The position numbers and the translations under genes are program-made. From a virus, in the IMG/VR virus record IMGVR_UViG_3300035698_004207, positions 1 to 59,009 of that record: DNA of 59,009 bases; one strand, 5' to 3'. A model generated the notes under the pieces. The model saw only the letters and a list, made by a program, of their open reading frames with translations. It was not told where the DNA came from and did no database searches. Positions 15,972-49,493 of this stretch are shown here, piece by piece (position 1 is the stretch's first letter; every line of letters begins with the position of its first letter).

Positions 15972-18900
15972 ATGGCCACACTACCAACAGGCCTCCGAGA
16001 TTTCCTTGACTACGGTACAACCCGTAAACGTATCTTCGATAACGTGGTGACCGGTCTTGGCGAGCGGTATCCGCTCGAGAACGATCAGTACAAGCTGGAA
16101 CTCAACGACCTACGTTACGAAGGCCCAGACAAGTTCTCCCTCAAGGAACAGAAGAAGGCTATTCTCCGACGCAAGAGCCTTGACCGTAAACTGGTCGGCA
16201 CATGGCAGCTGACGGACAAACTCACTGGCACACCGGTTGATAAACGTAAGACCGTGGTAGCCAAGGTGCCGTATCTGACTAGTCGCGGTACGTACGTGGT
16301 TAACGGCAATGAGTACACGGTAAGCAACCAGATGCGTCTTAAGTCAGGTGTGTACACACGTGTTAAGGACAACGGTGACCACGAAGCGCATTTCAATGTA
16401 TTGAGTGGCGGTCCGAGCTTCCGGGTGTTCATGGAACCCAAGACTGGTATCTTTCGTATGCAGGTAGGGCAGAGCAGATTGCCTCTTTATCCGTTACTCA
16501 AGTCCATGGGCATACCGGACTCACAGTTAGCCAAGTCATGGGGCACGGAGCTACTGCAAGCCAATTTACAGGCGTCGGCACGTAAGGGCGACACCACACT
16601 CAAGAAAGCGTGGGACCGGTTAGCCAACTCTAGGGCGTTGAAGGAAGTAGGAGAGCATCCGGAGAAAGACATGCGCATGCTGCTTGAGCGGTTCAAGCTC
16701 AATCCAGAGGTTACGCGCCGCACACTTGGTACAGCCTATGATCGTGTAACACCCGAGGCCATGATGCGCACAACAGCCAAGCTGATCAACATCTCTCAGC
16801 AGCTGGAAGACACGGACGACCGTGATAGCCTAGCGTACCAGAACACACTGAGTGCCGAGGACTTCTTTAAAGAACGGGTAGCCAAGGACGCAGGTCAGAT
16901 TGGGCGCAGACTACTGTGGAAGGCCACCATGCGTAAGAACCTTGGTAATCTACCGGCCGGTGCGCTCACTCCTCAGTTGGATCAGGTGTTCTTCAAGTCA
17001 GGTGTGGCGCAGCCGCTTGAAGAGGTGAACACCATGGACATGCTGGACCAGAACCTACGTATCATACGAATGGGTGAGGGCGGAATCCCTTGCTACTCAT
17101 CGGATACCGAGGTGCTGGCTATAGACGGGTGGAAACCGTGGCCGGATGTGGTTGAGACCGATAGATTAGCCTGTATGCAGGAAGGCCGGCTACTGTTTGA
17201 ACCTCCACGCGCTTTACATCAAGCTGACTACGTGGGTCCTATGTATCGAGGGGTTACCAAGCGCCTTGATTACCTGGTTACACCTGATCATCGTATGTAC
17301 GTATCGTATCAAGGCAATGACGGGTATTCACCTTTTTGCTTTAAGGCAGCTAAGGACGTACACGGTAAACGTATAAGGCACGTAGTTGCTGCACTACCAT
17401 ATCGTGGAGGGGGAGAGTCTAGTAGTTTTGAGATCGCGACCGCGCCCGCGCCGGTTGAGGGCGCTAACAGCGGATCTGCTCGTAAGGACGAGCTAACTGT
17501 TGATATATACGATTGGGTAGAATTCCTCGGCTACTACCTTGCAGAAGGATCATACGCCTACTGTCAAACCCGTAAAGAGTATAGGATAGAGCTGGGCAAA
17601 GTGCTTTCCAAGAACCCGGCAGAGCATAGCCGTATTGTTGATGTGATGGACCGTCTGGGTTTTACACACCGATATGAACAAGATCGCAGATTAGTAGTAT
17701 CTGGTAAGCACCTAGCGTATTACGTAAGTCAATTCGGTAAATCTGTGGATAAGTTCGTGCCCGACTTTGTAATGGCCGGATCGTACGAGCTACGAAACCG
17801 TTTCTTTCATAGTCTAGTATGCATGGATCATAGTGGGGACCTGAATGGTACATCATTTCTTTACGCATCGGCGTCAAAGACATTACGTGACCAAGCTGGG
17901 TGGCTAGCCATATCCTTAGGTTACGGCGTACATTACTATGTACGTCAGAAGGCTGGGGAGAATCCGCAATATCAGGTCAGGGTATCAAAGTCCAAGATCT
18001 CTGGTATAGCTCTTCAAAAAAACAGACAGCAGTATCAGGTGGAGCAGTATGATGGTAAAGTATATTGCGCATCGGTACCGGGGGACAAGCTGTTTGTTCG
18101 TAGAAATGGTAAGACCATGTGGTGTGGTAACTCGCAGGACGCGGTACCGATGGAATCTCGTGATGTCCAACCGTCGCACATGGGGTTCGTTGACCCAGTA
18201 CGTAGTCCGGAGTCAAGTGCCGTGGGTGTGGATAGCAGACTGGCGTACAATACGTTTAAGGGCGAGGACGACAAGCTTTACAGCCGGGTACGCAATGCCA
18301 AGGGCAAGACCGAGTACGTTACGCCCGAGGCGTTAACCGAGTCTGTTGTGGCGTTCCCGGGCGAGCTACGTCGGGCGGCCGCCGATGGTCGTAAGCGTGT
18401 TAAGGTCATGGCTGGTGGTAAACTGCAGTTCGTTGACGCCAAGGCCGTTGACTACGAGATACCAAGCTCACAAGAGTTGTTCAACTTCGGATCCAACTTG
18501 GTACCTATGATCAGTGGTAGTAAGGGCGGACGTCTACTCATGGGTGGTAAGATGGTTGGCCAGGCACTACCGTTACAAGATGCTGAGTCTCCGTTGGTAC
18601 AATCGCTTATGCCTGAAAGTGACCGCAGCTTTGAGAACAAGATGGGTAAGTACTCTGGGGTTGTGCATGCCGAGCAACCTGGTACGGTACAGCAGGTAAC
18701 TAAGGATGGGATCACGGTACTGCAGAAGGATGGTACCAAGCGCGAGTACGAGACGTACGATCACTTCCCACTCAATCGTAAGACCTATTTGAGCAGCAAG
18801 ATCGCGGTCAAGCCCGGTGATCGGGTAAAGCCCGGGCAACTACTGGCTACCAGCAACATGACGGATAGCGAGGGCACGTTGGCACTTGGTAAGAACCTGA

Positions 18901-20384
18901 ACGTCGGTTACATGCCTTACCGTGGCCTGAACTTCGAGGACGCTACGGTTATCAGCCAGGCGGCGGCCAACAAGATGAGCAGCGAACACATGTATACCTC
19001 TAAGATGGATTTCGATAGTCTGCTGAACGTCAACAAGAACAAGTTCATCTCTTTATTCCCAGGTAACTACGTGGTTAGCCAGCTCAAGAAGATGAGTGAC
19101 GACGGTGTGGTAAGGAAAGGCGCTATTCTCGAAAAAGGTGATCCGCTGATATTGGCCTTGCAGCGTAATGCCTCCAAGGGAGCGGGTATGCTGTACAAGG
19201 GCAAGAAGCGTAGCTTCACCGACGAGTCTGTTACGTGGGACCACGAGACATCAGGTGTGGTTACCGACGTGTGGGCCGACGACAAGGGTGTGAAGATAGC
19301 TACCAAGACGTTCGCGCCCGCCAAGGTCGGTGACAAGATGTGCTTCGACCCCGAGACAGACATACTAACACGAAGTGGTTGGCGGCCCGTTGCCGACATC
19401 ACGTACAAAGATGAGGTTGCTACGCTTAACACCGAGACCGACGAGCTAGAATGGCAGTACCCTACGTACGTCTGGGCCTATGATCATGTTGGTAAAATGT
19501 ACTATCTAGCAACTAAACAGTTAGACATGCTTGTCACGCTTGATCACCGTTTGTGGGTTGCCCGTCCTGGTAAAGAGTACCAGGCTGTGAAGGCCTGTGA
19601 CTTCTATAAGTCTAAGGGCGAGTGGCAGTTTAAGAAAGACTGTAACTGGCGCGGAGTTGATCGGAAAGCTATTGCGTTTGAATCGTATACGCCACGTAAC
19701 TCTAGAGAAAATTGTCTGACAAGTGCTAGCATGGACGATTGGTTGGAATTCTTAGGCTATTACATCGCCGAAGGTTGGAGTATTTATCAAGAACATAAGA
19801 ATCACAAGTACGTTCGCATAGCCCAGTACCCTGGCGATATATGCGATAAAATTGAAGCGGTGATCAAGCGGTTGGGGCTAAGGTATTCTTACGATGAGAA
19901 GGATAAACGATTTGTTATTAACAGCAAATGGCTGTATTCGGTGTTGGAGCCTTTAGGAAACAGCCGCTCGAAGTACGTGCCCGCGTATATTCAGGAGCTT
20001 TGTCCTCGGCAGCTGCAAATCTTTTTGGACGCGTATTTGGATGGCGACGGTCACCGCGGTGCCTGCTACGAGTACACAACTTCTTCAAAGCGTTTGGCGT
20101 ACGATATACAACTCATTTGTTTGAAGTTGGGGTTTACGGCGAGTGTTAAGAAAGTAGAACGTGTCGATAACTGGCAGAAAGTTCCTTGCTATCGGGCGAG
20201 GATCAATAGAACGCAGCTAAGACCGCGGTGGAAGAAAAGCCGGGCAAAGCAGTATGCGTCTGTTCAAGAGAAGTTAGTAGATTATGAGGGTAAGGTCCAT
20301 TGTATTACTGTAGCTAATCACGTGATATATTGTAAAAGGAGGGACAAAACGTACTGGTCACATAATAGTGGCCGGTACGGTTAA
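15972..20384 (+). CDS. RNA polymerase beta subunit, N-terminal and central part, with inteins 1 and 2
   Basis: Multisubunit RNA polymerase beta. Recognisable segments: YVVNGNEYTVSNQMRLKSGV (bacterial FIINGTERVVVSQ region), SRDVQPSHMGFVDPVRSPE (bacterial RDVHPTHYG..P.ETPE), ALGKNLNVGYMPYRGLNFED, and KVGDKM with the first catalytic lysine. Intein 1 follows GEGGIP; intein 2 follows GDKM. Without inteins this part is about 781 residues. The frame stops at TAA (20382-20384) right after SGRYG, yet the same frame resumes 9 bases later with the conserved DKGIIS, so the gene is interrupted rather than finished. AGGAGG precedes the ATG. It lies among virion genes, so a packaged or late polymerase is possible. 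Confidence 0.92.
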   Translation: MATLPTGLRDFLDYGTTRKRIFDNVVTGLGERYPLENDQYKLELNDLRYEGPDKFSLKEQKKAILRRKSLDRKLVGTWQLTDKLTGTPVDKRKTVVAKVPYLTSRGTYVVNGNEYTVSNQMRLKSGVYTRVKDNGDHEAHFNVLSGGPSFRVFMEPKTGIFRMQVGQSRLPLYPLLKSMGIPDSQLAKSWGTELLQANLQASARKGDTTLKKAWDRLANSRALKEVGEHPEKDMRMLLERFKLNPEVTRRTLGTAYDRVTPEAMMRTTAKLINISQQLEDTDDRDSLAYQNTLSAEDFFKERVAKDAGQIGRRLLWKATMRKNLGNLPAGALTPQLDQVFFKSGVAQPLEEVNTMDMLDQNLRIIRMGEGGIPCYSSDTEVLAIDGWKPWPDVVETDRLACMQEGRLLFEPPRALHQADYVGPMYRGVTKRLDYLVTPDHRMYVSYQGNDGYSPFCFKAAKDVHGKRIRHVVAALPYRGGGESSSFEIATAPAPVEGANSGSARKDELTVDIYDWVEFLGYYLAEGSYAYCQTRKEYRIELGKVLSKNPAEHSRIVDVMDRLGFTHRYEQDRRLVVSGKHLAYYVSQFGKSVDKFVPDFVMAGSYELRNRFFHSLVCMDHSGDLNGTSFLYASASKTLRDQAGWLAISLGYGVHYYVRQKAGENPQYQVRVSKSKISGIALQKNRQQYQVEQYDGKVYCASVPGDKLFVRRNGKTMWCGNSQDAVPMESRDVQPSHMGFVDPVRSPESSAVGVDSRLAYNTFKGEDDKLYSRVRNAKGKTEYVTPEALTESVVAFPGELRRAAADGRKRVKVMAGGKLQFVDAKAVDYEIPSSQELFNFGSNLVPMISGSKGGRLLMGGKMVGQALPLQDAESPLVQSLMPESDRSFENKMGKYSGVVHAEQPGTVQQVTKDGITVLQKDGTKREYETYDHFPLNRKTYLSSKIAVKPGDRVKPGQLLATSNMTDSEGTLALGKNLNVGYMPYRGLNFEDATVISQAAANKMSSEHMYTSKMDFDSLLNVNKNKFISLFPGNYVVSQLKKMSDDGVVRKGAILEKGDPLILALQRNASKGAGMLYKGKKRSFTDESVTWDHETSGVVTDVWADDKGVKIATKTFAPAKVGDKMCFDPETDILTRSGWRPVADITYKDEVATLNTETDELEWQYPTYVWAYDHVGKMYYLATKQLDMLVTLDHRLWVARPGKEYQAVKACDFYKSKGEWQFKKDCNWRGVDRKAIAFESYTPRNSRENCLTSASMDDWLEFLGYYIAEGWSIYQEHKNHKYVRIAQYPGDICDKIEAVIKRLGLRYSYDEKDKRFVINSKWLYSVLEPLGNSRSKYVPAYIQELCPRQLQIFLDAYLDGDGHRGACYEYTTSSKRLAYDIQLICLKLGFTASVKKVERVDNWQKVPCYRARINRTQLRPRWKKSRAKQYASVQEKLVDYEGKVHCITVANHVIYCKRRDKTYWSHNSGRYG
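17091..18131 (+). mobile_element. Intein 1 in RNA polymerase beta (347 aa)
   Basis: Residues 374-720. Starts CYSSDTEVLAIDGWKPW (block A), has TPDHRMYV (block B), LAGLIDADG-type endonuclease block WVEFLGYYLAEGSY and a degenerate second block near MDHSGDLNG, and ends VYCASVPGDKLFVRRNG then MWCGN before Ser+1. The penultimate His is replaced by Gly, as in some active inteins. The insertion point is between GEGGIP and SQDAVPMESRDV. Confidence 0.92.
19341..20366 (+). mobile_element. Intein 2 in RNA polymerase beta (342 aa)
   Basis: Residues 1124-1465. Starts CFDPETDILTRSGWRPV; block B is TLDHRLWV. Two LAGLIDADG blocks are intact in form (WLEFLGYYIAEGWS, FLDAYLDGDGHRG). It ends VHCITVANHVIYCKRR then YWSHN before Ser+1. 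It sits between GDKM and SGRYG, between the two catalytic lysines, with the in-frame TAA only 15 bases downstream. It resembles intein 1 and may be related to it. Confidence 0.93.
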
Positions 20385-20390
20385 CTAAGC
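20382..20390 (+). other. Nine-base stop-containing insertion in RNA polymerase beta
   Basis: The frame reads GRYG, TAA, CTA, AGC, then GAT AAA GGA ATA ATA (DKGIIS). Bacterial beta reads GRHGNKGVIS with no gap, so 9 bases (TAACTAAGC) are extra. They also carry a second TAA one frame over (20386-20388), and native bases close the third frame at 20393. The next in-frame ATG is 20430, with no ribosome site and about 30 bases from AAAGGA. This could be a programmed ribosomal bypass, a repair scar or a gene break. Confidence 0.85.
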
Positions 20391-20429
20391 GATAAAGGAA
20401 TAATAAGTAAAATCGTATCCGATGATCAG

Positions 20430-23400
20430 ATGCCTGTAGATGGGCAGGGCCAGCCGCTGGACGTGCTTGTCAATCCCCTAGGTGTAATCAGTCGTGGTAA
20501 CCCCAGTCAGTTGGTTGAAGCCATTCTTGGTAAGATTGCGGCCGCGCGTGGTAAGCCGTACAAGGTAGAGGGCTTTGGCGACGACGACATGGTTGAGTTC
20601 GCTATCAAGGAGCTGGAGAAGTCTGGGCTCAGTGACACGGAGAGTGTGTTCGACCCGGTTATGAACAGAGAGATCCCAGGCATATTGGTAGGCAAGCGGT
20701 TCTTCATGAAACTCCATCACACAGCGGAATCCAAGCTTAGTGGTCGCGGACTAGGAGTCTACACGTCTGAAGGCATACCGGCACAGGCGCCGGGCGGCGA
20801 GGACAGCCCTAAGCGCATTGGTGGCGGCGAGATGCAGGGTCTGGTAGCGCACGGGGCATGTTTTACAGGCGCGACCAGGGTGCTGACCCAGGAATACGGC
20901 TGGCTTCAAATATCTAAGATTGTCAGTAAACGTTTACCACTACTGGTGGCGTCGTTCAACAGTGTGACAAAACGAATAGAGTATAAGAAGATAATAGATT
21001 GGCTTTGTAGATCTGTTCCTGAAACTGACTTTGTAGAGGTACGGACAAAAGCACGAGTTGGGTCCAGGCGTGGCGGTATTGCCGGTTATCGAAGGGGTAT
21101 TAAATGTACTCGTGGACATGAATTTCATACACCGACAGGTAAAGTTCAAGCCGCGGACTTGCAGGCCGGGCATGAAATACTATCAATTGGCCCTGCAATT
21201 GCGGATTGGCAGGTAGCAGCGCTTTACGGGTCAGTTATGGGCGACAGCTACATAAGCCCGCAAGGCCGCGTATCGTTTGTACACGGTCATACGCAATATG
21301 ATTATTTAACGTGGAAATATCGGTTGTTCAAAAACATGGTACGTACTGCCCCTAAAAAACAGCGTCTTTCTGCGGGTGGCTTTGCAAAAAAACCTACTAT
21401 GCGTTTCTGTACTCTTACAAATCACATAAGTCAGAGGATGCGGGTTGAAATGTATGGTCAACATAAAAAAGTACCAGAGGGTATTGTTGCTAAGATGGGC
21501 TGGTATGGCTTAGGTATTTGGTTTGCAGATGACGGAGGTTGTTGTAACCGCAACGGAAAAGCCAGCGTGTATAGATTGCATACAAATGCTTTTACGGTCG
21601 CCGAGTGCGAGCGATTGGCTCTTGAACTTCAAGAGTTTACCGGAGCGCCGTGGCGTGTAGTTATTAGATCAGTTGCAGGTAAAAAACGTTATCCAATTTT
21701 AACGTTAACGAATAGCGAACCTAACACGCTAGTTGATTTTGCAAAGCAGCTTGGGCCATATCTTCCGCCTATGTTTGGCTATAAGCTTGGAAACAGATAC
21801 GCAGGTGTAGTAGGTTCCGCTTGGTCTAAACTTGTTACTCCGCAGCACCTAACTGTTAACCCCTGTATAGTAACGTCAATCGAACCGTACGAGCTTAAAT
21901 CGTACGAGTCTGGGCTAGTATACAATATTACGGTTGAAGACAATCATAATTATATTGTACACGGCGTTCTTGTAGGTAATTCGGAGGTTATCAAGGACGT
22001 CAAGAACGTACGTGGGCAGCGCAACGACGAGTACTGGAAAGCCATGATGATGGGTCACCCGCCACCAACACCAGCTATCCCCATGGCGTACAAGAAGATG
22101 CTGGCGTTACTCCAGGGTGCGGGTATCAACGTCAAGAAGCAGGGTAACTACCTACATCTACTGGCTATGACGGACAAGGATGTGGACAAAATGAGTTCTG
22201 GTGCGGTCAACAACCCGGATACCGTTAAGTGGATGAGCGAGTACGGTCGAGGCTCGTTCGGCGAGAAGAGCATGGAGCCCGTTAAGGGCGGGTTGTTCGA
22301 CCGAGGTATAACCGGTGGACATGGTGGGTGTTTTCATCCGATGACGCAGATATGGACTGAGCAAGGTTATATGTCTATTGGCGATATTGTTTTGGAGCGT
22401 AGGCGTGTTAAGGTGTGGAGCTACAATCATGCGGCTCAAGCTTTTGAGCTTAAGCCTATAACAAACTGGTTTAAGAACATAGCAGAAAACGGTATAAGTA
22501 GCTCGGTCTTTCAGGATGAGAAGAGGGGTGTTGATGCCATGCGGGCGTCCACACTATGGGGCACGCCAACACATCAAGTGTATGATAAGCACGGGCATTG
22601 CCAAGACCTGGCTGTTGCTACCAGTCTGCAAGCTGTTACGGAATGCGCGTCGTTAACACTTAGACAGTTTTTAGATGGGTGCATGCTCGGCGACGGACAT
22701 GTAAGCGAGGCTGGTAACTACGACGAGGTGCATTGCGCGACGCAGAAAGAGTACGCGATGTGGAAGGTGCGCGTTTTAGGCACGTTGGTACCGGCTAAGA
22801 ACATTAGAGAATTCATAGACACGTCGGGTGGCCTAATCAGATCAAAGGTGTATTTCAGGTCTATTACGCACCCTGTGTTAAAAGAATTACGCCGTGCTTG
22901 GTACGGCTCTGAAAAAAAACACGTTAGTAAACGGCAAGCGGTTGCTGCAATGAATCCAGTGTCGCTGTCGGTATGGTTTATGGATGATGGTAGTTGTTTC
23001 AGACGGGTCGATCGAAATACAATACAGATAGCGCTAAGCACGCATGGCTTTAACAAGAAGTCAGTTAGGAATTTAGCTACGGCCTTGTACAAGGTATACG
23101 GTATAACCTCTCGGATTTGTCGTGATAACAAGAAATACGGTAAGAAACCGTACGGCTGGTATTTACTGATAACCGCTAAAGACGCACATTATTTCTTGAA
23201 TATAGTAGCTCCGTATATTCATCCCAGTATGGTGTACAAACTGCCAAAGAGGCCGATTACTAGCTATTGTAAGTGCGGTCGAGAGATACTTCGGATACGA
23301 GATATATGTAATATGTGTTTACTTGACGAAGCTAGAAATTGTGGTGCACACAAGTTACCAAAGCATATACGTAGGAGGCTGGGCGGTACCGTCGGGGTTA

Positions 23401-26400
23401 GGCAGATTATTGCCAGGCCCGCCAGTTTACCGACGGATCAAATACTGGAATTAACTGCGTGGGAATCTTGGATAAGTATGTTGGGTACTGGTTGTAGCCG
23501 TGTTGAGGCCGGGTCTTGCTTGTCGTACTGTTTGTCCGATATTCCGGCACGATATCGTCAAAAGACAGGATTGCGTTGGGAGAATACTAGATCCGTATAT
23601 GATATAGAGGTCGCAGATAACCATAATTATTTTGCTAACGGTATTCTAGTAAGTAACTCAAGATGGTCGCACATAGAGCTGTCTGAGCCTATGCCTCAGC
23701 CGGTGATGGAAGATCCTATTCGTACGTTGTTGGGCTTGACCAAATCCCAGTACGAAGATGTTATTGCCGGTAAGAAAGAGATACCTGGTGTTGGTACCGG
23801 TACCAGAGCCGTAGCCGAGGCGCTCAAGCGCATGAAGGTCCCTAGCATGATAGAGGGACTACGGGATACCGTTCGAAGCACGTCGTCGGCCACCGGCCGC
23901 GACCTGGCGCTTAAGAAGCTCAAGTACCTAGAGACGTTCGAACGCCAGGGTACCAAGCCGGCTGATCTGGTTGTGAACAAAGTAGGAGTGCTGCCTCCGA
24001 TCTTCAGACCAATCAGCGGGACCAAGGACTTTACGATGGTGGCGGGTGCCAACCGTCTGTACCTGGACATGATGCAGGCTGACAAGAACCTGGTGGCCAT
24101 GCGTGGCCAGCTTGGTGATGACGTTGTTGGCGAAGCCCGGCTCAATCTATACAAGTCGTTCAAGGCCGTTACCGGGTTGGGTGATCCGGTCAAGACCGAT
24201 ACCAAGAGCCATAGGGTCAAGGGCCTGTTATCCGAGATATTTGGTAAGAGCCCGAAGATGGGTATCGTGCAGCGCAGGTTGCTTGGTACACCGGTAGATA
24301 TGGCTGGCCGCTCGGTTATCATACCGAATCCAGAACTAGACATGGATCAGATTGGTATACCTGAGGAGATGGCGTGGAAGCTGTATAGCCCGTTCGCCAT
24401 ACGTAGGATGATCAAAGGCATGGGTAACCGGCCAGATGCCCGTTCACAGGCTGTACGGTTGGTAAGCGAGCACGCACCGCGCGCCCGGGAAGCCATAGTG
24501 GCCGAGATGGCTGAGCGGCCTGTACTGGCTACCAGGGCCCCGGTTCTCCACAAGTACGGTATCATGGCGTTCAACCCGGTTATGACGCCCGGTAAGACGT
24601 TGCAGACAAGCCCGCAGATCATTGCCGGATTTGGCGGAGACTACGACGGCGATTGCGATTTTAGTGCTGTTATCATTGGTGTTGACAGGCCGCTTTTGAC
24701 GCGATACCATGAAGTGTATGGTAAAACCTTCATGGAGGATCGTCTAATGAGCGCCAGATACAAAGCTAAGCTGCCGGTGTTAACGGATAAGGAAGTTTTT
24801 ATATTCAACTTGGAGGACATTCCAAGGGCGGCGTTAATGAGCACTAAGGACGGGGAGAAAGGTTGCATTGATTTTTATCATGTACCGGCGGGTATGAAGG
24901 TACTGGCCTACGATGAAAAGACTGGGGCTGTTAGTTGGTCTAAGGTCGGTGCGTTTTCAATTCATCATGACCGCGAGATAGAGGTTGTTAATCTTAAGTC
25001 TGGGCGGCAGATTATTACCGACGACGATCCCCGAGCGGTTTACGGCGTACCGGCTGGCAGTTTGAAGCTTGGGCGGTTTACCCCCACGGAGGCGGAGAAG
25101 CAGAAGGTGTTGGTGCCGAGGGCCGATCGGTTAGACGTACCGGAACTGATCTCTGATATTGATATTGATAAAGTTGATGACCCGTACTGGAAAACACGCC
25201 AGCTCAACTCTAGCATCAAACTAGACTTCGATTTCGGATATCTTGTTGGAGCTATGGCCGGCGATGGGTGGTCTAGTAGCGATAAGGCTGTTTGTTTGGC
25301 CGCGACTACCAAAGCTGTGGCTGATAAGGTAGACCAGGTTATTAACGCGCTGTTTGATGGTAAGGTTCCTAAACGAGGTTGCGTGGTGTCTAAGACCTCG
25401 TACGGCAAGAGCATCAAGTACTCGTGGCCCAGCACCGAGCTTGCAAAGCTTATCAAACCACTAGTAGGCTCGGGTGCGCGCAACAAGCATCTACCGCCGT
25501 ATTTCTTAACCGGCCCTAAAGAGTTTAGGTTCGGACTGTACGCCGGGCTGATGGACACTGACGGCGGAGTAGGGGTATCGAACGCCAAGACCAAGCCGCA
25601 GCTGATGGCCAACTACTATTCAACCAGTTTGCGATTGATTTACGAGGTTAAACTACTCGCCTCGTCGCTAGGTATTAAAGGGCGGATTACGGCCACAGCA
25701 ACCCCGGCTGGTAAACGTAGCTGGGTTTGTATGTTTTCAGGTCCGGACATCAAGCGCTGGGCCGGCCGCGGGCTGCTTAACCGGGAAAAGCTGTCTAAGA
25801 TCGTAACCACGGAGGTCAACGCCGAGTCTACGGTATCGGCTCGTAACGACCTGGTACCTATTTCTAGAGCGTTGGCAACCCACGTACTTGGCCAGATTAA
25901 CTCCAAGCGGGGCGCCCCTAGGGCGGACAAAACCATGTACGCCAATATATGGCGTGGTCGTGAAGTAGGCTACTTGTCTAGATTGACGGCCAAGCGTTTG
26001 GAATCCTTTGTATCGCGTGATAGCGTTCTTAAGCACGTTGACGGTAAACAGTGGCTGGCTGTTGTTGACTCCGATGTTACGTGGGACCAGGTTGTCTCGG
26101 TGGACAGGACTGGTATGGTAGAAACCGGGTACGATCTAACGGTGCCGGGCAAAGAAACCTTCTTGTCCGTTGATGGACTTGTACTTTCGAATACCATGAA
26201 CTTCCACGTCGTGTCGTCGGACAAAGCTATAGTCGATGCCAAGGACAAAATGTTACCAAGTCGGAACTTGCGTAGCCCTGCTGATTTCGCTACTATGTGG
26301 AAACCTAGGCAGGAGTTCTTACAGGGGTTGTACATGGCCAGTACCAGGAAGAGCGGTAAACGAACGTTACCCGCGTACGACAGTGCCAAGGACGTTATCG

Positions 26401-26456
26401 CGGCGTTCAAGCGTGGCGAGCTGAATATTGAAGACGCTATTACCATGAAGGAGTAG
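20430..26456 (+). CDS. RNA polymerase beta C-terminal part fused to beta-prime N-terminal half, with inteins 3-5
   Basis: The frame continues from 20385 without an obvious start; 20430 is the first ATG. Beta segments: LDVLVNPLGVISRGNPSQLV (bacterial VDIVLNPLGVPSRMN), KLHHTAESKLSGRG, and GGGEMQGLVAHGA. Beta-prime begins about GGLFDRGITGGHGG, then SRWSHIELSEPM, LGTPVDMAGRSVI, ATRAPVLHKYGIMAFNP, and the catalytic DYDGD, continuing to FLQGLYMASTRKSG. Excluding inteins the frame gives 678 residues. The beta-prime N-terminal zinc finger is absent. Beta-prime stops where cyanobacterial RpoC1 ends; the rest is encoded at 37189-39042. No alpha or sigma gene is seen. Confidence 0.9.
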   Translation: MPVDGQGQPLDVLVNPLGVISRGNPSQLVEAILGKIAAARGKPYKVEGFGDDDMVEFAIKELEKSGLSDTESVFDPVMNREIPGILVGKRFFMKLHHTAESKLSGRGLGVYTSEGIPAQAPGGEDSPKRIGGGEMQGLVAHGACFTGATRVLTQEYGWLQISKIVSKRLPLLVASFNSVTKRIEYKKIIDWLCRSVPETDFVEVRTKARVGSRRGGIAGYRRGIKCTRGHEFHTPTGKVQAADLQAGHEILSIGPAIADWQVAALYGSVMGDSYISPQGRVSFVHGHTQYDYLTWKYRLFKNMVRTAPKKQRLSAGGFAKKPTMRFCTLTNHISQRMRVEMYGQHKKVPEGIVAKMGWYGLGIWFADDGGCCNRNGKASVYRLHTNAFTVAECERLALELQEFTGAPWRVVIRSVAGKKRYPILTLTNSEPNTLVDFAKQLGPYLPPMFGYKLGNRYAGVVGSAWSKLVTPQHLTVNPCIVTSIEPYELKSYESGLVYNITVEDNHNYIVHGVLVGNSEVIKDVKNVRGQRNDEYWKAMMMGHPPPTPAIPMAYKKMLALLQGAGINVKKQGNYLHLLAMTDKDVDKMSSGAVNNPDTVKWMSEYGRGSFGEKSMEPVKGGLFDRGITGGHGGCFHPMTQIWTEQGYMSIGDIVLERRRVKVWSYNHAAQAFELKPITNWFKNIAENGISSSVFQDEKRGVDAMRASTLWGTPTHQVYDKHGHCQDLAVATSLQAVTECASLTLRQFLDGCMLGDGHVSEAGNYDEVHCATQKEYAMWKVRVLGTLVPAKNIREFIDTSGGLIRSKVYFRSITHPVLKELRRAWYGSEKKHVSKRQAVAAMNPVSLSVWFMDDGSCFRRVDRNTIQIALSTHGFNKKSVRNLATALYKVYGITSRICRDNKKYGKKPYGWYLLITAKDAHYFLNIVAPYIHPSMVYKLPKRPITSYCKCGREILRIRDICNMCLLDEARNCGAHKLPKHIRRRLGGTVGVRQIIARPASLPTDQILELTAWESWISMLGTGCSRVEAGSCLSYCLSDIPARYRQKTGLRWENTRSVYDIEVADNHNYFANGILVSNSRWSHIELSEPMPQPVMEDPIRTLLGLTKSQYEDVIAGKKEIPGVGTGTRAVAEALKRMKVPSMIEGLRDTVRSTSSATGRDLALKKLKYLETFERQGTKPADLVVNKVGVLPPIFRPISGTKDFTMVAGANRLYLDMMQADKNLVAMRGQLGDDVVGEARLNLYKSFKAVTGLGDPVKTDTKSHRVKGLLSEIFGKSPKMGIVQRRLLGTPVDMAGRSVIIPNPELDMDQIGIPEEMAWKLYSPFAIRRMIKGMGNRPDARSQAVRLVSEHAPRAREAIVAEMAERPVLATRAPVLHKYGIMAFNPVMTPGKTLQTSPQIIAGFGGDYDGDCDFSAVIIGVDRPLLTRYHEVYGKTFMEDRLMSARYKAKLPVLTDKEVFIFNLEDIPRAALMSTKDGEKGCIDFYHVPAGMKVLAYDEKTGAVSWSKVGAFSIHHDREIEVVNLKSGRQIITDDDPRAVYGVPAGSLKLGRFTPTEAEKQKVLVPRADRLDVPELISDIDIDKVDDPYWKTRQLNSSIKLDFDFGYLVGAMAGDGWSSSDKAVCLAATTKAVADKVDQVINALFDGKVPKRGCVVSKTSYGKSIKYSWPSTELAKLIKPLVGSGARNKHLPPYFLTGPKEFRFGLYAGLMDTDGGVGVSNAKTKPQLMANYYSTSLRLIYEVKLLASSLGIKGRITATATPAGKRSWVCMFSGPDIKRWAGRGLLNREKLSKIVTTEVNAESTVSARNDLVPISRALATHVLGQINSKRGAPRADKTMYANIWRGREVGYLSRLTAKRLESFVSRDSVLKHVDGKQWLAVVDSDVTWDQVVSVDRTGMVETGYDLTVPGKETFLSVDGLVLSNTMNFHVVSSDKAIVDAKDKMLPSRNLRSPADFATMWKPRQEFLQGLYMASTRKSGKRTLPAYDSAKDVIAAFKRGELNIEDAITMKE
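20859..21980 (+). mobile_element. Intein 3 in RNA polymerase beta C-terminal part (374 aa)
   Basis: Residues 144-517 of the second frame. Starts CFTGATRVLTQEYGWLQ and ends VYNITVEDNHNYIVHGV then LVGN before Ser+1 (SEVIKDV). The endonuclease region has LYGSVMGDSYIS and WFADDGGCC, a LAGLIDADG-type pair. The bases are visibly more A/T-rich than the surrounding extein, suggesting recent arrival. The penultimate His is replaced by Gly. Insertion follows MQGLVAHGA. Confidence 0.92.
22329..23657 (+). mobile_element. Intein 4 in beta-prime N-terminal half (443 aa)
   Basis: Residues 634-1076 of the second frame. Starts CFHPMTQIWTEQGYM, with FLDGCMLGDGHVSE and SVWFMDDGSCFRR as LAGLIDADG-type blocks, and ends VYDIEVADNHNYFANGI then LVSN before Ser+1 (SRWSHIEL). 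It carries a CxC...CNMC cluster (CKCGREILRIRDICNMC) like a small zinc ribbon near its end, an unusual extra in an intein. The penultimate His is replaced by Ser. Confidence 0.92.
24654..26192 (+). mobile_element. Intein 5 at the beta-prime catalytic aspartate loop (513 aa)
   Basis: Residues 1409-1921. Inserted exactly after DYDGD, the magnesium-binding loop, and before TMNFHVV (Thr+1). It ends ETGYDLTVPGKETFLSV then DGLVLSN, typical of inteins with a Thr or Ser acceptor. Endonuclease blocks are LVGAMAGDGWSS and YAGLMDTDGGVG. The N-terminal block is odd: CDFSAVIIGVDRPLLTRYH precedes about 70 residues before the usual MKVLAYDEKTGAV strand. It is the largest intein here. Confidence 0.9.
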
Positions 26457-37040: not shown

Positions 37041-37195
37041 TGGCTTCATTGGATCATATTCTTTCGCCATTGCGCGGTGGTAGTAAGACAGATCCGGCTA
37101 ATTTTCAGTGGGTGACTAAGGACGTAAATTGGGCGAAGAGTAAACTAACTCATGATGAATTTGTAAGTTTGTGTAGGAAGGTAGTCAGATGTTAA
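37040..37195 (+). pseudogene. HNH endonuclease C-terminal remnant, 51 aa
   Basis: MASLDHILSPLRGGSKTDP and FQWVTKDVNWAKSKLTHDEF resemble only the second half of an HNH nuclease (L-D-H-I...G-G...N-F-Q...N-x-x-K). The first half is absent upstream, where an intact metacaspase gene ends. The ATG overlaps the metacaspase stop (TAATG) and its own stop overlaps the next ATG, so it may still be translated. It is likely a decayed homing endonuclease at the start of the detached beta-prime C half. Confidence 0.6.
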
Positions 37196-39042
37196 ACACA
37201 ACAACAGGGCAGGTGCTTATTAATGCTGTACTTCCCGAACACTTAAGGGATTACAGCCGGGTACTAGACAAGAAGGGTATTGACGCCCTGACCGAGCAGT
37301 TGGCCGACGAGAAGAATCCGGAACTGTATCGCAAGGTCATGCACGCCCTGTACTCGGTTGGTCACATGTCTGCGCAGTCTGGTGGTGCGAGTTTCAGCCT
37401 CTACGACCTGCGTACCCCTGTAGGTACTAAAGTTGCTCTAGATAAACTCAAAGATCAAGTGACAGCCGTTACCGAGAGCGATACCCTAACCCCAGACCAG
37501 CGGGAAGCCGCGGTGGTCAAGCTAGTTGGTGGTCAGGCGTCTAAGATCGAACAGCAGTTGTATGACGAGGCGTTGAAATCAGGTAACGCGTTCGCCCAGC
37601 AGGTACACAGCGGATCGCGCGGTAAGAAAGGTGACCTACGTTCGTTATTGGTCGGAGATCTACTGGTGTCTGATCACAAGGACAGGATCATCCCCATGCC
37701 TATCACGAACAGTTATTCACAGGGCGTGGACCCAGCGCAGTTTTGGGCCGGTGCGTACGGGGCTAGACGAGGAACTATCGCAACGAAATTCCAAACATCA
37801 CAAGCCGGTTTCCTGGCCAAGCAGCTATCGCAGGCTGCGCACACCCAGGTAGTAACATCAGAGGACTGTGAGACCAGTAGAGGCATACCGGTCCCGGCCG
37901 ATGATCCGGATAACATTGGTACAGTGTTGTCCGCAACAGCGGGTGGTCTGCCAGCAGGTACCGTACTTGGCCCACGTGAGATTCGTAAGCTTAAGGGCAA
38001 GACCATATCTGTCAGATCTCCTCTGACATGTGAAGCCAATGACGGGGTATGTGGTCGCTGCGCCGGCATCAGAGAGAAAGGCGGGTTTCCTGAGGTTGGT
38101 GACAACATTGGTATCACGGCCGCCCAGTCATTGTCCGAACGGCTAAGCCAGACTCAGCTCAGCAAGAAGCATAGTGCTGGACGAGCTGACTACGCTGAGG
38201 AAGCACAGGGTGTACAGGGATTCGATTTGATCAACCAGATGGTACAGGTGCCAAAGGCCTTTAGAGAGGCGGCAACCATAGCCCGGACGGACGGTACAGT
38301 TAAGTCCGTGTCCGAGGCCCCACAGGGCGGCCAGTTCGTAGTCGTTGGTGACGAACAGCATTATATACCACCGAAGTTCAAGGTGTTTGTGAAGCCCGGG
38401 GACAGGGTAGACGCCGGAGACGTTATCTCCGAGGGGCTACCAAATCCTATGGAGTTGGTCAAGTACCGCGGTATCGGTGCCGGGCGCCTGGAGTTCACCA
38501 ATCTATTTAGAGATGCGTTCCGTAAGCAGGGCATGCCGGCTAACCGCCGTAACATCGAGTTGGTAGCCCGGGGGTTGATCAACCATGTACGGGTAACGGA
38601 CCTGGACGGACCTAACAACACGTTGCCCGACGATATAGTGGAATACACGTCTATTGAACGCAATTACCGACCACGGTACGGCCACCGTAAGGGCATGCCT
38701 AAGATATCTGTTGGTAATTACCTGGAGCGACCGGTCAACCAGTACTCGATCGGCACCAGGGTAACCAAGAGAGTGGCTAAGGATTTGGAGAACGCTGGTA
38801 TCAGAGAAGTGTCGTACCACAAGGATCCACCACCGTTCGTACCGCAGATGGTGCGCGCGATGGAGACCCTGACTATGAGTCCGGACTTTCAACAGAGAAT
38901 GGCTGGCAGCTACCTTCAGAAGGGGTTGCTCGAGTCCGTGCATCGTGGGCGCAGTAGTCAGATTAGCGGCCCGTCGTATATCCCGGGGCTGATGCGTGGT
39001 AAGGGTTTTGGGGATAAGCTTAAAACACACGGGGTGTACTAA
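37189..39042 (+). CDS. RNA polymerase beta-prime, C-terminal half, 617 aa
   Basis: Aligns with the second half of bacterial beta-prime: opening TTTGQVLINAVLPEHLRDYS, then AYGARRGTIATKFQTSQAGF (bacterial GARGS...RGLMAKP region), RSPLTCEANDGVCGRCAG (zinc-type CxxC), and VGDNIGITAAQSLSERLSQT (bacterial VG..AAQSIGEPGTQLT). The beginning matches where cyanobacterial RpoC2 begins. It must associate with the product of 15972-26456. AGGAAGG is 10 bases before the ATG. No intein is visible here, unlike the other half. It lies 10.7 kb from its partner, separated by virion and enzyme genes. Confidence 0.9.
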   Translation: MLNTTTGQVLINAVLPEHLRDYSRVLDKKGIDALTEQLADEKNPELYRKVMHALYSVGHMSAQSGGASFSLYDLRTPVGTKVALDKLKDQVTAVTESDTLTPDQREAAVVKLVGGQASKIEQQLYDEALKSGNAFAQQVHSGSRGKKGDLRSLLVGDLLVSDHKDRIIPMPITNSYSQGVDPAQFWAGAYGARRGTIATKFQTSQAGFLAKQLSQAAHTQVVTSEDCETSRGIPVPADDPDNIGTVLSATAGGLPAGTVLGPREIRKLKGKTISVRSPLTCEANDGVCGRCAGIREKGGFPEVGDNIGITAAQSLSERLSQTQLSKKHSAGRADYAEEAQGVQGFDLINQMVQVPKAFREAATIARTDGTVKSVSEAPQGGQFVVVGDEQHYIPPKFKVFVKPGDRVDAGDVISEGLPNPMELVKYRGIGAGRLEFTNLFRDAFRKQGMPANRRNIELVARGLINHVRVTDLDGPNNTLPDDIVEYTSIERNYRPRYGHRKGMPKISVGNYLERPVNQYSIGTRVTKRVAKDLENAGIREVSYHKDPPPFVPQMVRAMETLTMSPDFQQRMAGSYLQKGLLESVHRGRSSQISGPSYIPGLMRGKGFGDKLKTHGVY

Positions 39043-46838: not shown

Positions 46839-49493
46839 ATGGATAATGGCGTACCGTTTCTGAAGACGATCTTACCGTCAGCTTACGGGTATAGCGAACC
46901 TACGGCTGCGCTTGTTGATCTACACAGCCATGGCGTGGATAGCGAATGGCTTACCAAGCGCGCGGCCGCCGGTGTGTTCAAGCAGCTGGACCTAAAGCCA
47001 GAGTCCGGACATTCTGTTATCCATCTGATAGCTATGGGTGCCTCTGATCGTTATGGGTGCTTGGCTGGTAATACGCCTATAGCGATGGCTGATGGCTCTC
47101 ACAAGCCTATAGCGGCTGTTGAGGTTGATGACATGGTGCTATCTGGCAGTGGAGATATACGACGTGCTACAACGACTTACAATCGGGTTGTAGATGGGGC
47201 GTATGAGATAACTGTAGAGGGTCTGCCGGCGCCGATAATAATGTCTGATAACCACCCGGTTGAGGTTGCTAGGGTTGAACAGTTTAGATGTAAGCATGAT
47301 AAATACAAACGATGTATGCCACCGATTAAGGGTCAGCTAAATATATGTAAGAGGCCGCAAGCTAAAGACTGCGCGATGGAACCAGTAGAAGATGTTAAGA
47401 TGGAACGAGCTGAGGCGGAAACGCTCTGCTGTGGCGATTATCTTATTTTCAAAATACCGGTTGTTAAGCCCCCAAGAACAATATCTCCTGAGGAAGGGCG
47501 GCTGATAGGTTATTGGCTAGCTGAGGGATCGTTTCAACGTAGTTATAAAGGAGGGCCTATTCAATCGTTGCGGTTTTCGTTTGGGCCGCATGAAGAGCAC
47601 ACATTGGTTGCTGATTGTCTTGGGTTGCTTGAGCACCTGGGTATGACTGGCCATAAATATCCAGATGAAATCAAGTCTTACGTTGCGGTTACGACCGCGA
47701 AGAGTGTTAAATTATCTCGTGAATATTTTGATTGGTTTTCTTCTGGTGCACATAATAAACGGCTGCCTCTTTGGGTTTATAGTCTTCCTAACGAAGTAAA
47801 GACGGAAATAGTATACGGTTATTTTGCTGGCGACGGAACTGTAACGATAAACAATAAGGACAATCGGGCTACTGCCTGTACTGTCAGCTACGATCTCGCA
47901 ATGGGCACACAGCGGTTGTTGTGGTCGCTTGGTCTTCCGGCGGTAGTTTGTGCGGTGACACCGTATACGACTGGTTTTGGAAGTTGTGCTATAAGTCCTT
48001 ATCACGTGTCATACCCTTTGTCGGCAGCAGCTGGTACCAGGTTATCGTTCGGTGGCCGTTCGTTGAAGCAGCCTACCAAAGTTCGTACTTTTGTTCATGA
48101 CAGCATAGTGTACCTCGCGATTCGCGGTATACGTAAGTTAGATTGGAATGAGCGGGTATATAATCTTGAGATTGAAGAGGATCATGATTATGTAGGCGGC
48201 GGGTTCTACTCACATAATTGCAATCGCAATGGTGACATTTTTCTTAGGAAGAGCGCGTACGCTGAGATCCCCAACCCTAAGGAAGGGACGCCACGCAATG
48301 TCAAGATCGACCAGGGGTTGATCGAGACGCACAGGACGTTCGAGAAGTACGCCAAGGTCTACCGCAACCACGTCAACAAAGATCCGAAGAAGGCTCACGG
48401 CGATGTAGTGAAGTCGGCTTTCAACGATTCTATGGATAGGGTTGAACTGCTGATCAAGGTAGCCAATGACGCTTGGGAGGCCGAGATACAGGATTTGGCT
48501 AACGAGAAGGATGTTGATTTCAGCATGAGCTGCAAGGTCCCGTACGATCTGTGTACCGAGTGCGGTAACAAGGCAGCCAACCGTAGCCAGTACTGCGACC
48601 ATCTTAAGAACCACATGACGGAGATCACCAAGCAGGGTAATCAGATTGGTGCTATCAACGATCATCAGACGTTCTTCGACATCAGTAGGGTAACAACCCG
48701 GGCAGACCGTATCGCCCTGGGATTACTCAAAGCTGCATCTGACGGTTCGAAGGTTGTGTCGGGCGCCGAGCTGTCTGAGGAGTTTAACCTCTGTCCGCCG
48801 GTTGACCTAGGGTACGTTGATCCGTGGTTTATAGCGCCGGCTATGACAGACAAGAAGGCGGTACTTCGCAAGTTGTCTGACATTGAGAAAGAGATTGAGG
48901 GTATTGGGTGCGGCGACAGCCCGTTTAACCGCCTAGCCATGTCTATGGGCCCTGAGTCTACGCCAGACATCGCTGACGACGACCTGGAGAGCCTACAGGT
49001 ACCACGTAGCCAGACCATGGATCTCCTGGGTTCGTTGGCCGACGTTAAGATCGCTCTTTCCTTAAAGGACCTGATGAAGATCATTTTGGGCAAGCGGTAT
49101 GATGAGGCTAGCAGCTCGGTTGACGAGGCGCAGAACATGCTACCAGGCGTGTTCTCACGAGAAGCCGAGTCCAGCGAAGAGACCTCTGACTTTGATTTTG
49201 GTAACTCGTTGCTACCAAGGGTGGTGAGAGATACCATCCATAAACTGATACCTTCACATTCGTTGGGCGAGGACCCGGTGCGTAGGCGGGTTGTGATTAC
49301 GGTACTTAGAGGCAAGGACGCTCCCAAGCTTATGAGTCCGATAGGGTTAGATAAGGAAGGTTCGACCTCGGAGTTGGCTGAGCGACTGGCTAAGGCGTAC
49401 GCGTCATACAAGGTTGCCTTCTGTCAGCGGGCGGGGTTGGAAAATAAGGTGTTGACAAAGTTAGCGGTTTTGCAGCATTATGTTATTCGATAG
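46839..49493 (+). CDS. Prohead protease with intein 6, 884 aa (497 aa spliced)
   Basis: Without the intein the N-terminal core reads DRYG-C-NRNGDIF, then YRNHVNKDPKKAHGDVV (catalytic His region) and KDVDFSMSCKV (catalytic Ser region), followed by a Cys4-like site (CTECGN...YCDHLKNHM) as seen in large-phage head maturation proteases. These enzymes cleave scaffold and capsid proteins inside the prohead. The C-terminal 200 residues are acidic and probably serve as scaffold-like extension. A sigma70-type promoter follows the stop codon. Confidence 0.8.
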   Translation: MDNGVPFLKTILPSAYGYSEPTAALVDLHSHGVDSEWLTKRAAAGVFKQLDLKPESGHSVIHLIAMGASDRYGCLAGNTPIAMADGSHKPIAAVEVDDMVLSGSGDIRRATTTYNRVVDGAYEITVEGLPAPIIMSDNHPVEVARVEQFRCKHDKYKRCMPPIKGQLNICKRPQAKDCAMEPVEDVKMERAEAETLCCGDYLIFKIPVVKPPRTISPEEGRLIGYWLAEGSFQRSYKGGPIQSLRFSFGPHEEHTLVADCLGLLEHLGMTGHKYPDEIKSYVAVTTAKSVKLSREYFDWFSSGAHNKRLPLWVYSLPNEVKTEIVYGYFAGDGTVTINNKDNRATACTVSYDLAMGTQRLLWSLGLPAVVCAVTPYTTGFGSCAISPYHVSYPLSAAAGTRLSFGGRSLKQPTKVRTFVHDSIVYLAIRGIRKLDWNERVYNLEIEEDHDYVGGGFYSHNCNRNGDIFLRKSAYAEIPNPKEGTPRNVKIDQGLIETHRTFEKYAKVYRNHVNKDPKKAHGDVVKSAFNDSMDRVELLIKVANDAWEAEIQDLANEKDVDFSMSCKVPYDLCTECGNKAANRSQYCDHLKNHMTEITKQGNQIGAINDHQTFFDISRVTTRADRIALGLLKAASDGSKVVSGAELSEEFNLCPPVDLGYVDPWFIAPAMTDKKAVLRKLSDIEKEIEGIGCGDSPFNRLAMSMGPESTPDIADDDLESLQVPRSQTMDLLGSLADVKIALSLKDLMKIILGKRYDEASSSVDEAQNMLPGVFSREAESSEETSDFDFGNSLLPRVVRDTIHKLIPSHSLGEDPVRRRVVITVLRGKDAPKLMSPIGLDKEGSTSELAERLAKAYASYKVAFCQRAGLENKVLTKLAVLQHYVIR
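47058..48218 (+). mobile_element. Intein 6 in prohead protease (387 aa)
   Basis: Residues 74-460. Starts CLAGNTPIAMADGSHKP, with SDNHPVEV as block B, RLIGYWLAEGSFQ and VYGYFAGDGTVTI as LAGLIDADG blocks, and ends VYNLEIEEDHDYVGGG then FYSHN before Cys+1. The bases are A/T-richer than the surrounding gene. Insertion is in the conserved GASDRYG-C-NRNGD strand near the protease N terminus. Confidence 0.93.

Follow-up and report, generated by a model that had tools for sequence, protein, structure and literature searches.

The stretch of DNA analysed here (the window) comprises positions 1 to 59,009 of an IMG/VR virus record of 59,009 bases and encodes a phage RNA polymerase whose beta subunit, when read across a break in the gene, is fused to the front (N-terminal) part of beta' (Table 1). 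The first open reading frame closes on SGRYG (20367-20381) and TAA (20382-20384), after which CTA AGC (20385-20390) leads to GAT AAA GGA, the beginning of DKGIIS, at 20391; the order of the elements is GDKM-[intein 2]-SGRYG-TAA-CTA-AGC-DKGIIS. This TAA is the sole internal stop in the otherwise open 15972-26456 frame, and the open frame that follows it (20385-26456, 2023 codons) runs through three more inteins. The Rpb2 domain 6 (PF00562) matches both sides of the break, and both conserved lysine motifs are present. In the intein-free relative L040, GDKMSGRYGDKG aligns with the bacterial GDKMAGRHGNKG; both lysines of this motif are active-site residues. An earlier note on this DNA had described an in-frame TAA within a 9-base insertion, with stops in two frames, and both observations hold: exactly 9 bases are extra compared with 45 intein-free relatives, and the +1 frame contains a second TAA (20386-20388). 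Between the first TAA and GAT, the window has no in-frame NTG.

The TAA is an ordinary stop codon in this DNA, where the 41 long plus-strand open reading frames end with TAA (26), TAG (9) or TGA (6), in agreement with the view of the earlier note that reassignment is unlikely. An alternative genetic code was rejected on the same grounds: each of the three stop codons terminates long window frames, and all three are also found at the break in the relatives described below. A PF00562 search yielded one beta gene in the window and one in each of five related records (two of them 202 and 226 kb long), a sixth contig of 6 kb being left out; no second intact copy was detected in the window or in these five records, which are possibly fragments.

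The polymerase gene of the window contains five inteins, with boundaries drawn by eye, and its beta' is both split and fused to beta: some 11 kb further downstream, beyond a glycosyltransferase gene and others, a distinct gene encodes the C-terminal portion of beta' (PF04998). In the catalytic loop of beta', the window has GGDYDGD, L054 has NADFDGD and L056 has GADFDGD, where Gly again takes the place of Asn, and intein 5 lies immediately 3' of the loop in the window. Another intein-like insert (LAGLIDADG_3, with weak, sub-cut-off Hint matches) is present in an 884-aa frame of unknown function. The opening codons of the second half of the polymerase gene (GGA ATA ATA AGT AAA ATC, within 20391-20420) are AT-rich in the window, unlike those of the other four lineages considered below.

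Table 1. Coordinates of the features of the window that are discussed in the text.
Feature	Coordinates	Strand	Remarks
ORF1: phage RNA polymerase beta, N-terminal portion; contains inteins 1 and 2 and closes with SGRYG-TAA	15972..20384	+	1470 aa; PF00562, LAGLIDADG_3; Hint_2 below cut-off
Intein 1	17091..18131		boundaries by eye
Intein 2, between GDKM and SGRYG	19341..20366	+	boundaries by eye; LAGLIDADG homing endonuclease domain; Cys1, C-terminal HN, +1 Ser
Shine-Dalgarno-like GGAGG, 5' of the hairpin	20338..20342	+	putative role
RNA hairpin, 12 bp, 6-nt loop	20350..20379	+	5' arm 20350-20361 in intein; 3' arm 20368-20379 in SGRYG codons
Proposed take-off codon GGT (Gly)	20379..20381	+	GGY in 5/5 lineages; putative role
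Proposed non-coding gap TAACTA, starting with the stop TAA	20382..20387	+	putative role
Candidate landing codon AGC	20388..20390	+	putative; counterpart GGT in L053, GGC in L059, GGT in L054, GAT in L056
Second half, DKGIIS...: remainder of beta plus the front part of beta'; contains inteins 3, 4 and 5	20391..26456	+	
Intein 3	20859..21980		boundaries by eye
Intein 4	22329..23657		boundaries by eye
Beta' catalytic loop	24633..24653		
Intein 5	24654..26192		boundaries by eye
C-terminal part of beta', separate gene	37189..39042		PF04998
Intein-like insert in frame of unknown function	46839..49493		884 aa; LAGLIDADG_3

As judged from its sequence and its structural model, intein 2 is an intein with a LAGLIDADG endonuclease and a Hint fold, for which splicing and homing activity are predicted. 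The AlphaFold2 model (mean pLDDT 87.4) matches intein and homing endonuclease structures, the best being 7qsu (E 2.9e-17), and the Hint_2 match falls below the Pfam cut-off.

Searches with intein 2 retrieved six IMG/VR contigs with inteins that are 56-60% identical to it, occupy the same site and represent four distinct lineages. All six carry a stop immediately after SGRYG, so that, with the window, the stop is found in 7 of 7 records and in five lineages whose inteins are 57-67% alike. The six contigs bear six different metagenome numbers, and three of them are nearly one sequence: L054 and L055 are identical at all but 2 of 7014 positions, and the junction of L057 is identical to theirs. 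The junctions read GGT-TAA-CTAAGC-GAT in the window (insert of 9 nt), GGC-TAG-GT-GAT in L053 (5 nt), GGT-TGA-AGGC-GAT in L059 (7 nt), GGC-TGA-GGT-GAT in L054, L055 and L057 (6 nt) and GGC-TAA-CGAT-GAT in L056 (7 nt). The insert length of 9 bases given in the earlier note is thus nothing special, and the idea that the length is meaningful in itself was dropped. Further members of the family were not encountered: pattern scans returned the same six contigs and six unrelated matches (L072, L075, L078, L094-L096), two of these scans, for the C-terminal DNA motif and with no stop required, added no members (their three extra matches are unrelated), and a fixed-spacing pattern run on the loci found the L053 contig only. 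The exact 20-mer of the window junction is absent from the viral contigs and occurs once in a Paenibacillus genome, which we take as chance; among named phages, the junction DNA gave one 29-base match, to an Acaryochloris phage (E 0.2). Lak-A1 was considered as a family member and rejected, given that its intein is 29% identical and ends without a stop, and that the sequence downstream is not GRYG-DKG.

The polymerase site was further compared across 49 loci, a set from which records very near the window are possibly omitted and in which no close relative of the window was found. At 45 of these (L003-L045, L050 and L051; 35 distinct contexts), the site is intein-free, and all 45 are stop-free and uninterrupted, 43 having motifs of the GDK..GR[YF]GDKG type, among the other loci L023 with GDKLSNRFASKG, of equal length. 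The other four loci (L046-L049) match only behind a further intein, and their contigs carry intein 2. A distant intein (30% identity) occupies the same site in eight loci (L063-L070, with few distinct sequences) and is never followed by the stop. The comparison of GRYG-DKG with and without the insert, which the earlier note had suggested as a check, accordingly yields a stop at this codon in 7/7 records of the intein-2 subfamily, 0/45 intein-free loci and 0/8 distant-intein loci, a difference beyond chance; that the stop accompanies intein 2 goes beyond that note. In a separate observation, the annotation of Vibrio phage D181 lists several hypothetical proteins, and with them a homing endonuclease, over the stretch that matches RNA polymerase beta (L093:1426-6232).

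A single stop in a single contig would have the appearance expected of a sequencing error, a repair scar left by homing or a non-functional polymerase, as the earlier note had allowed. This explanation is barely credible now that six further contigs, for a total of five diverged lineages, share the stop: lineages that keep it with differing stop codons and insert lengths do not fit a scar, an error or a dead gene. Furthermore, the second half remains open for 2023 codons through three inteins, and the records searched each contain a single beta gene.

Across the inserts of 9, 5, 7, 6 and 7 nt, DKG falls in all three frames relative to SGRYG. Readthrough of the stop in the zero frame, aided by the hairpin described below or by a suppressor tRNA, would add X-L-S in the window or X-G in L054, where the 9- and 6-nt inserts keep the frame, and in these two lineages alone it would also yield one chain. 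However, the 5-, 7- and 7-nt inserts put DKG out of frame in L053, L059 and L056; because the frame changes in three of the five lineages, readthrough is not the general answer, and another mechanism would be required for the remainder. The occurrence of TAA, TAG and TGA at the same position, and the lack of a detectable tRNA gene in the 59-kb window (itself a fragment), further weaken this explanation, which we consider improbable.

True fission of the gene, with the second polypeptide restarting near DKG by reinitiation and the halves assembling as a split beta, has precedents, given that RNA polymerase subunits are split in some phages and cells. A Shine-Dalgarno-like GAGG and the hairpin precede the stop, and there is an in-frame GTG 7 codons before GAT in L056 and a TTG 19 codons before it in L053. 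However, the window, L054 and L059 have no in-frame ATG, GTG or TTG upstream of GAT, so that a restart at a normal start codon was discarded for three of the five lineages. On the downstream side, the nearest in-frame start lies 13 codons in (an ATG) for four lineages and 8 codons in (a GTG, preceded at about 14 nt by GGGAG) for L056, and each of these starts would lose the DKG lysine. In the window, the ATG at 20430 has no Shine-Dalgarno sequence in the preceding 20 nt, as the earlier note had stated, and encodes the Met of a conserved QMP/EMP motif. Read in the DKG frame, the 13 codons that extend from DKG as far as the Met position show 0.36, 0.11 and 0.56 differences per site at the first, second and third codon positions, respectively, a pattern indicating that this frame is translated and under coding selection. 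A break between two active-site lysines would, moreover, probably not be tolerated, and fission is therefore unlikely. A +1-frame GTG or ATG at TGATAA, noticed by eye in L053, L054 and L056, was also dismissed as a restart site, being absent from the window and leading into the wrong frame.

The stop codon is preceded by a strong hairpin, which the earlier note had not reported, with the sequence CGUACUGGUCAC-AUAAUA-GUGGCCGGUACG, ending in the Gly codon before the stop. All 12 pairs are formed in all five lineages (60/60 cells paired), and the loops differ. The minimum free energy of the 36-nt segment is -20.9 to -23.1 kcal/mol in the five lineages, compared with -3.9 and -5.9 for the stop-free sites of two distant inteins (38 nt) and a mean of -6.6 (range -1.9 to -10.6 kcal/mol) for 11 of the 45 intein-free loci; the 12-bp hairpin is absent from all 13 stop-free loci folded. 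Relative to shuffled sequences, the z-scores for four lineages are -6.0, -3.5, -4.2 and -3.9. The hairpin is partly fixed by the protein sequence, and its covariation is weak, with a single pair showing a double change (A-U in two lineages, G-C in three) and a score reached by 47 of 500 shuffles. With the 3' partners shifted by -3, the covariation score rises (0.150 vs 0.100), yet only 41.7% of the cells are then paired. The inteins of the subfamily end with KTYWSxN, and the TAC of its Tyr is the complement of the extein GTA; the distant inteins L063 and L065 end with K[TA]VWSGN, with V at this position. All five lineages have a GAGG 6-7 nt upstream of the stem, its codon register shifting between AGG AGG and AGG/AGA GAG. 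The consensus fold includes no take-off stem-loop around the stop codon; from the landing triplet onward it shows a weak stem, of whose 8 pairs 4 are retained by every lineage. A known RNA element was rejected, the only Rfam match, STnc350, scoring 20.7 bits where the cut-off is 60.

Codon use provides what is, at the sequence level, stronger evidence for the hairpin than covariation. Within the last 16 alignment columns, a cut chosen post hoc with the alignment already seen, 7 of the 12 invariant degenerate residues use a single codon in all five lineages, compared with 10 of 114 elsewhere (p 1.2e-4); these are Asp GAC, Lys AAA, Thr ACG, Tyr TAC, Gly GGC, Arg CGG and Tyr TAC. The Ser of SGRYG is encoded by AGY, as the stem requires, in 5/5 lineages vs 2/13 intein-free relatives (p 0.0025), and the Arg by CGG in 5/5 vs 6/35. 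Conservation of the SGRYG codons could come in part from a shared homing site. The Asp of DKG is GAT in 5/5 lineages vs 9/34 intein-free relatives (p 0.0035), for which we offer no reason.

In three lineages (L053, L054 and L059), a GGY codon before the stop is matched by a GGY triplet immediately before GAT, whereas the window (GGT/AGC) and L056 (GGC/GAT) retain two of the three pairs, so that the full match is missing in 2/5 lineages. In all five, the in-frame triplet is the earliest non-overlapping one with at least two of three pairs to a GCC anticodon (product over random gaps, 7e-6), a rule that was framed post hoc with the data seen and that assumes tRNA-Gly with anticodon GCC. The landing GGY codons may have been inherited from the target gene.

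Taken together, these features suggest that the gene is probably decoded by short programmed translational bypassing, similar in principle to that in T4 gene 60 and tied to a homing intein. Under this scenario, intein 2 and the stop behind it would form one cassette. The ribosome would stall with peptidyl-tRNA-Gly on GGY and the stop codon in the A site; the hairpin would re-form behind the ribosome and draw the mRNA 5'-ward; and the peptidyl-tRNA would release, slide over 2-6 nt and re-pair at the triplet immediately before GAT. Translation would resume at DKG, and splicing of the intein would then yield the family-length GDKM-SGRYG-DKG. The DKG frame could also be reached in each lineage by frameshifts at the GGY-stop, -1 in L053 and +1 in L059 and L056, with readthrough elsewhere, and a stop codon in the A site does favour such shifts. 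This would, however, require a single conserved site, with its single conserved hairpin, to be served by three mechanisms and would leave extra residues in a motif that has none in 45/45 intein-free relatives, which makes lineage-specific shifts quite improbable. The relatives thus favour the hop from a Gly codon over the stop that the earlier note had proposed on the model of gene 60. The parallel is only partial, however, because take-off (GGT) and landing (AGC) codons are mismatched in the window and because two gene 60 features were not found, namely the take-off stem-loop and a KKYK-type nascent peptide, which was not seen by eye about 30 residues back in the intein C-terminus, where another signal is possible.

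The proposed bypass cassette would spread by homing, the stop and its antidote being carried together. A tree of the polymerase was built from 57 rows (the window and 56 of the loci), of which 42 remained once 14 duplicates had been merged and L046, whose coverage was low, removed. The five intein-2 lineages are scattered on this tree and require five changes, a number matched by 814 of 1000 sets of five tips drawn at random. L047, from the contig of L055, pairs with the intein-free L040 (support 1.0) and L059 with the intein-free L013 (0.98); the placement of the window with L023 has a support of only 0.435. Intein identity exceeds extein identity in 9 of the 10 pairs, the exception being L053-L054. 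Given the scattered lineages, the higher identity of the inteins, the LAGLIDADG domain and the intein-endonuclease fold, the stop and the intein appear to travel together; intein and stop may also have been lost repeatedly instead of spreading. A more tentative and rather doubtful extension is an addiction-like mobile cassette, in which the stop sits in the host gene, and one hairpin arm, along with any nascent-peptide signal, in the intein. If the intein alone were cleanly lost, the stop would stay in an essential polymerase gene without an antidote, which would make the intein hard to lose. The intein would then spread by homing jointly with a programmed ribosome hop.

T4 gene 60, for which a GGA-stop take-off, a Gly landing codon and a 5' stem-loop proposed as a motor that pulls the mRNA are described (PMC5009743, PMC11194080), shares with the window family the Gly take-off, the 3'-adjacent stop (5/5 lineages) and the 5' stem-loop, as well as a matched Gly landing in 3/5 lineages and a link to a homing endonuclease (PMC5009743, PMC11194080). 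The T4 gap is 50 nt as opposed to 2-6 nt here, and the hairpin here is nearer, abutting the take-off codon; here also, unlike in gene 60, the endonuclease lies inside an intein, the gene encodes an RNA polymerase, and a take-off stem-loop and KKYK were not found. At the place of the 3' stem-loop that opens ORF2 in gene 60, the consensus fold here shows the weak stem described above. The bypassed T4 insert has been discussed as protection against a homing nuclease (PMC5009743). Among the synthetic stop-hops of Weiss et al. 1987, as described in PMC5009743, L053 corresponds to a +5 case; the sites described here differ in being natural, conserved, accompanied by a hairpin and located in a phage polymerase gene. 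The mitochondrial inserts of Magnusiomyces capitatus are likewise skipped over short distances with a landing that is not always matched, and two-of-three pairing has been suggested for them (PMC5009743), whereas the present sites are bacteriophage and intein-tied, with a conserved hairpin and an A-site stop in place of an unused codon. Two phage candidates also bear comparison: the terminase gene of Streptomyces phage Hau3, with a short gap and a Shine-Dalgarno-like sequence 5' of it, and the tape measure gene of mycobacteriophage Corndog, where an HNH gene adjoins a possible bypass; the passages on these candidates mention neither an intein nor a variable-gap series (PMC5009743, PMC4351075). 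The Caudovirales with a deep-branching multi-subunit RNA polymerase have beta and beta' related to those of the cellular enzyme, as is the case here, and the main text that describes them does not contain the word 'intein' (PMC7481178). No link between bypassing and an intein was apparent from titles and the beginnings of abstracts in the literature on inteins, bypassing and frameshifting, a coverage outside which most subscription papers fall.

If the bypass reading is true, gene callers wrongly split such genes. In a 2016 review, T4 gene 60 stands as the only natural phage bypass to have been studied well, and other candidates are few (PMC5009743). The family described here allows five lineages to be compared that differ in stop codon and in gap (2-6 nt) at a single conserved hairpin within an RNA polymerase gene, so that the rules of take-off and landing could be tested with short constructs.
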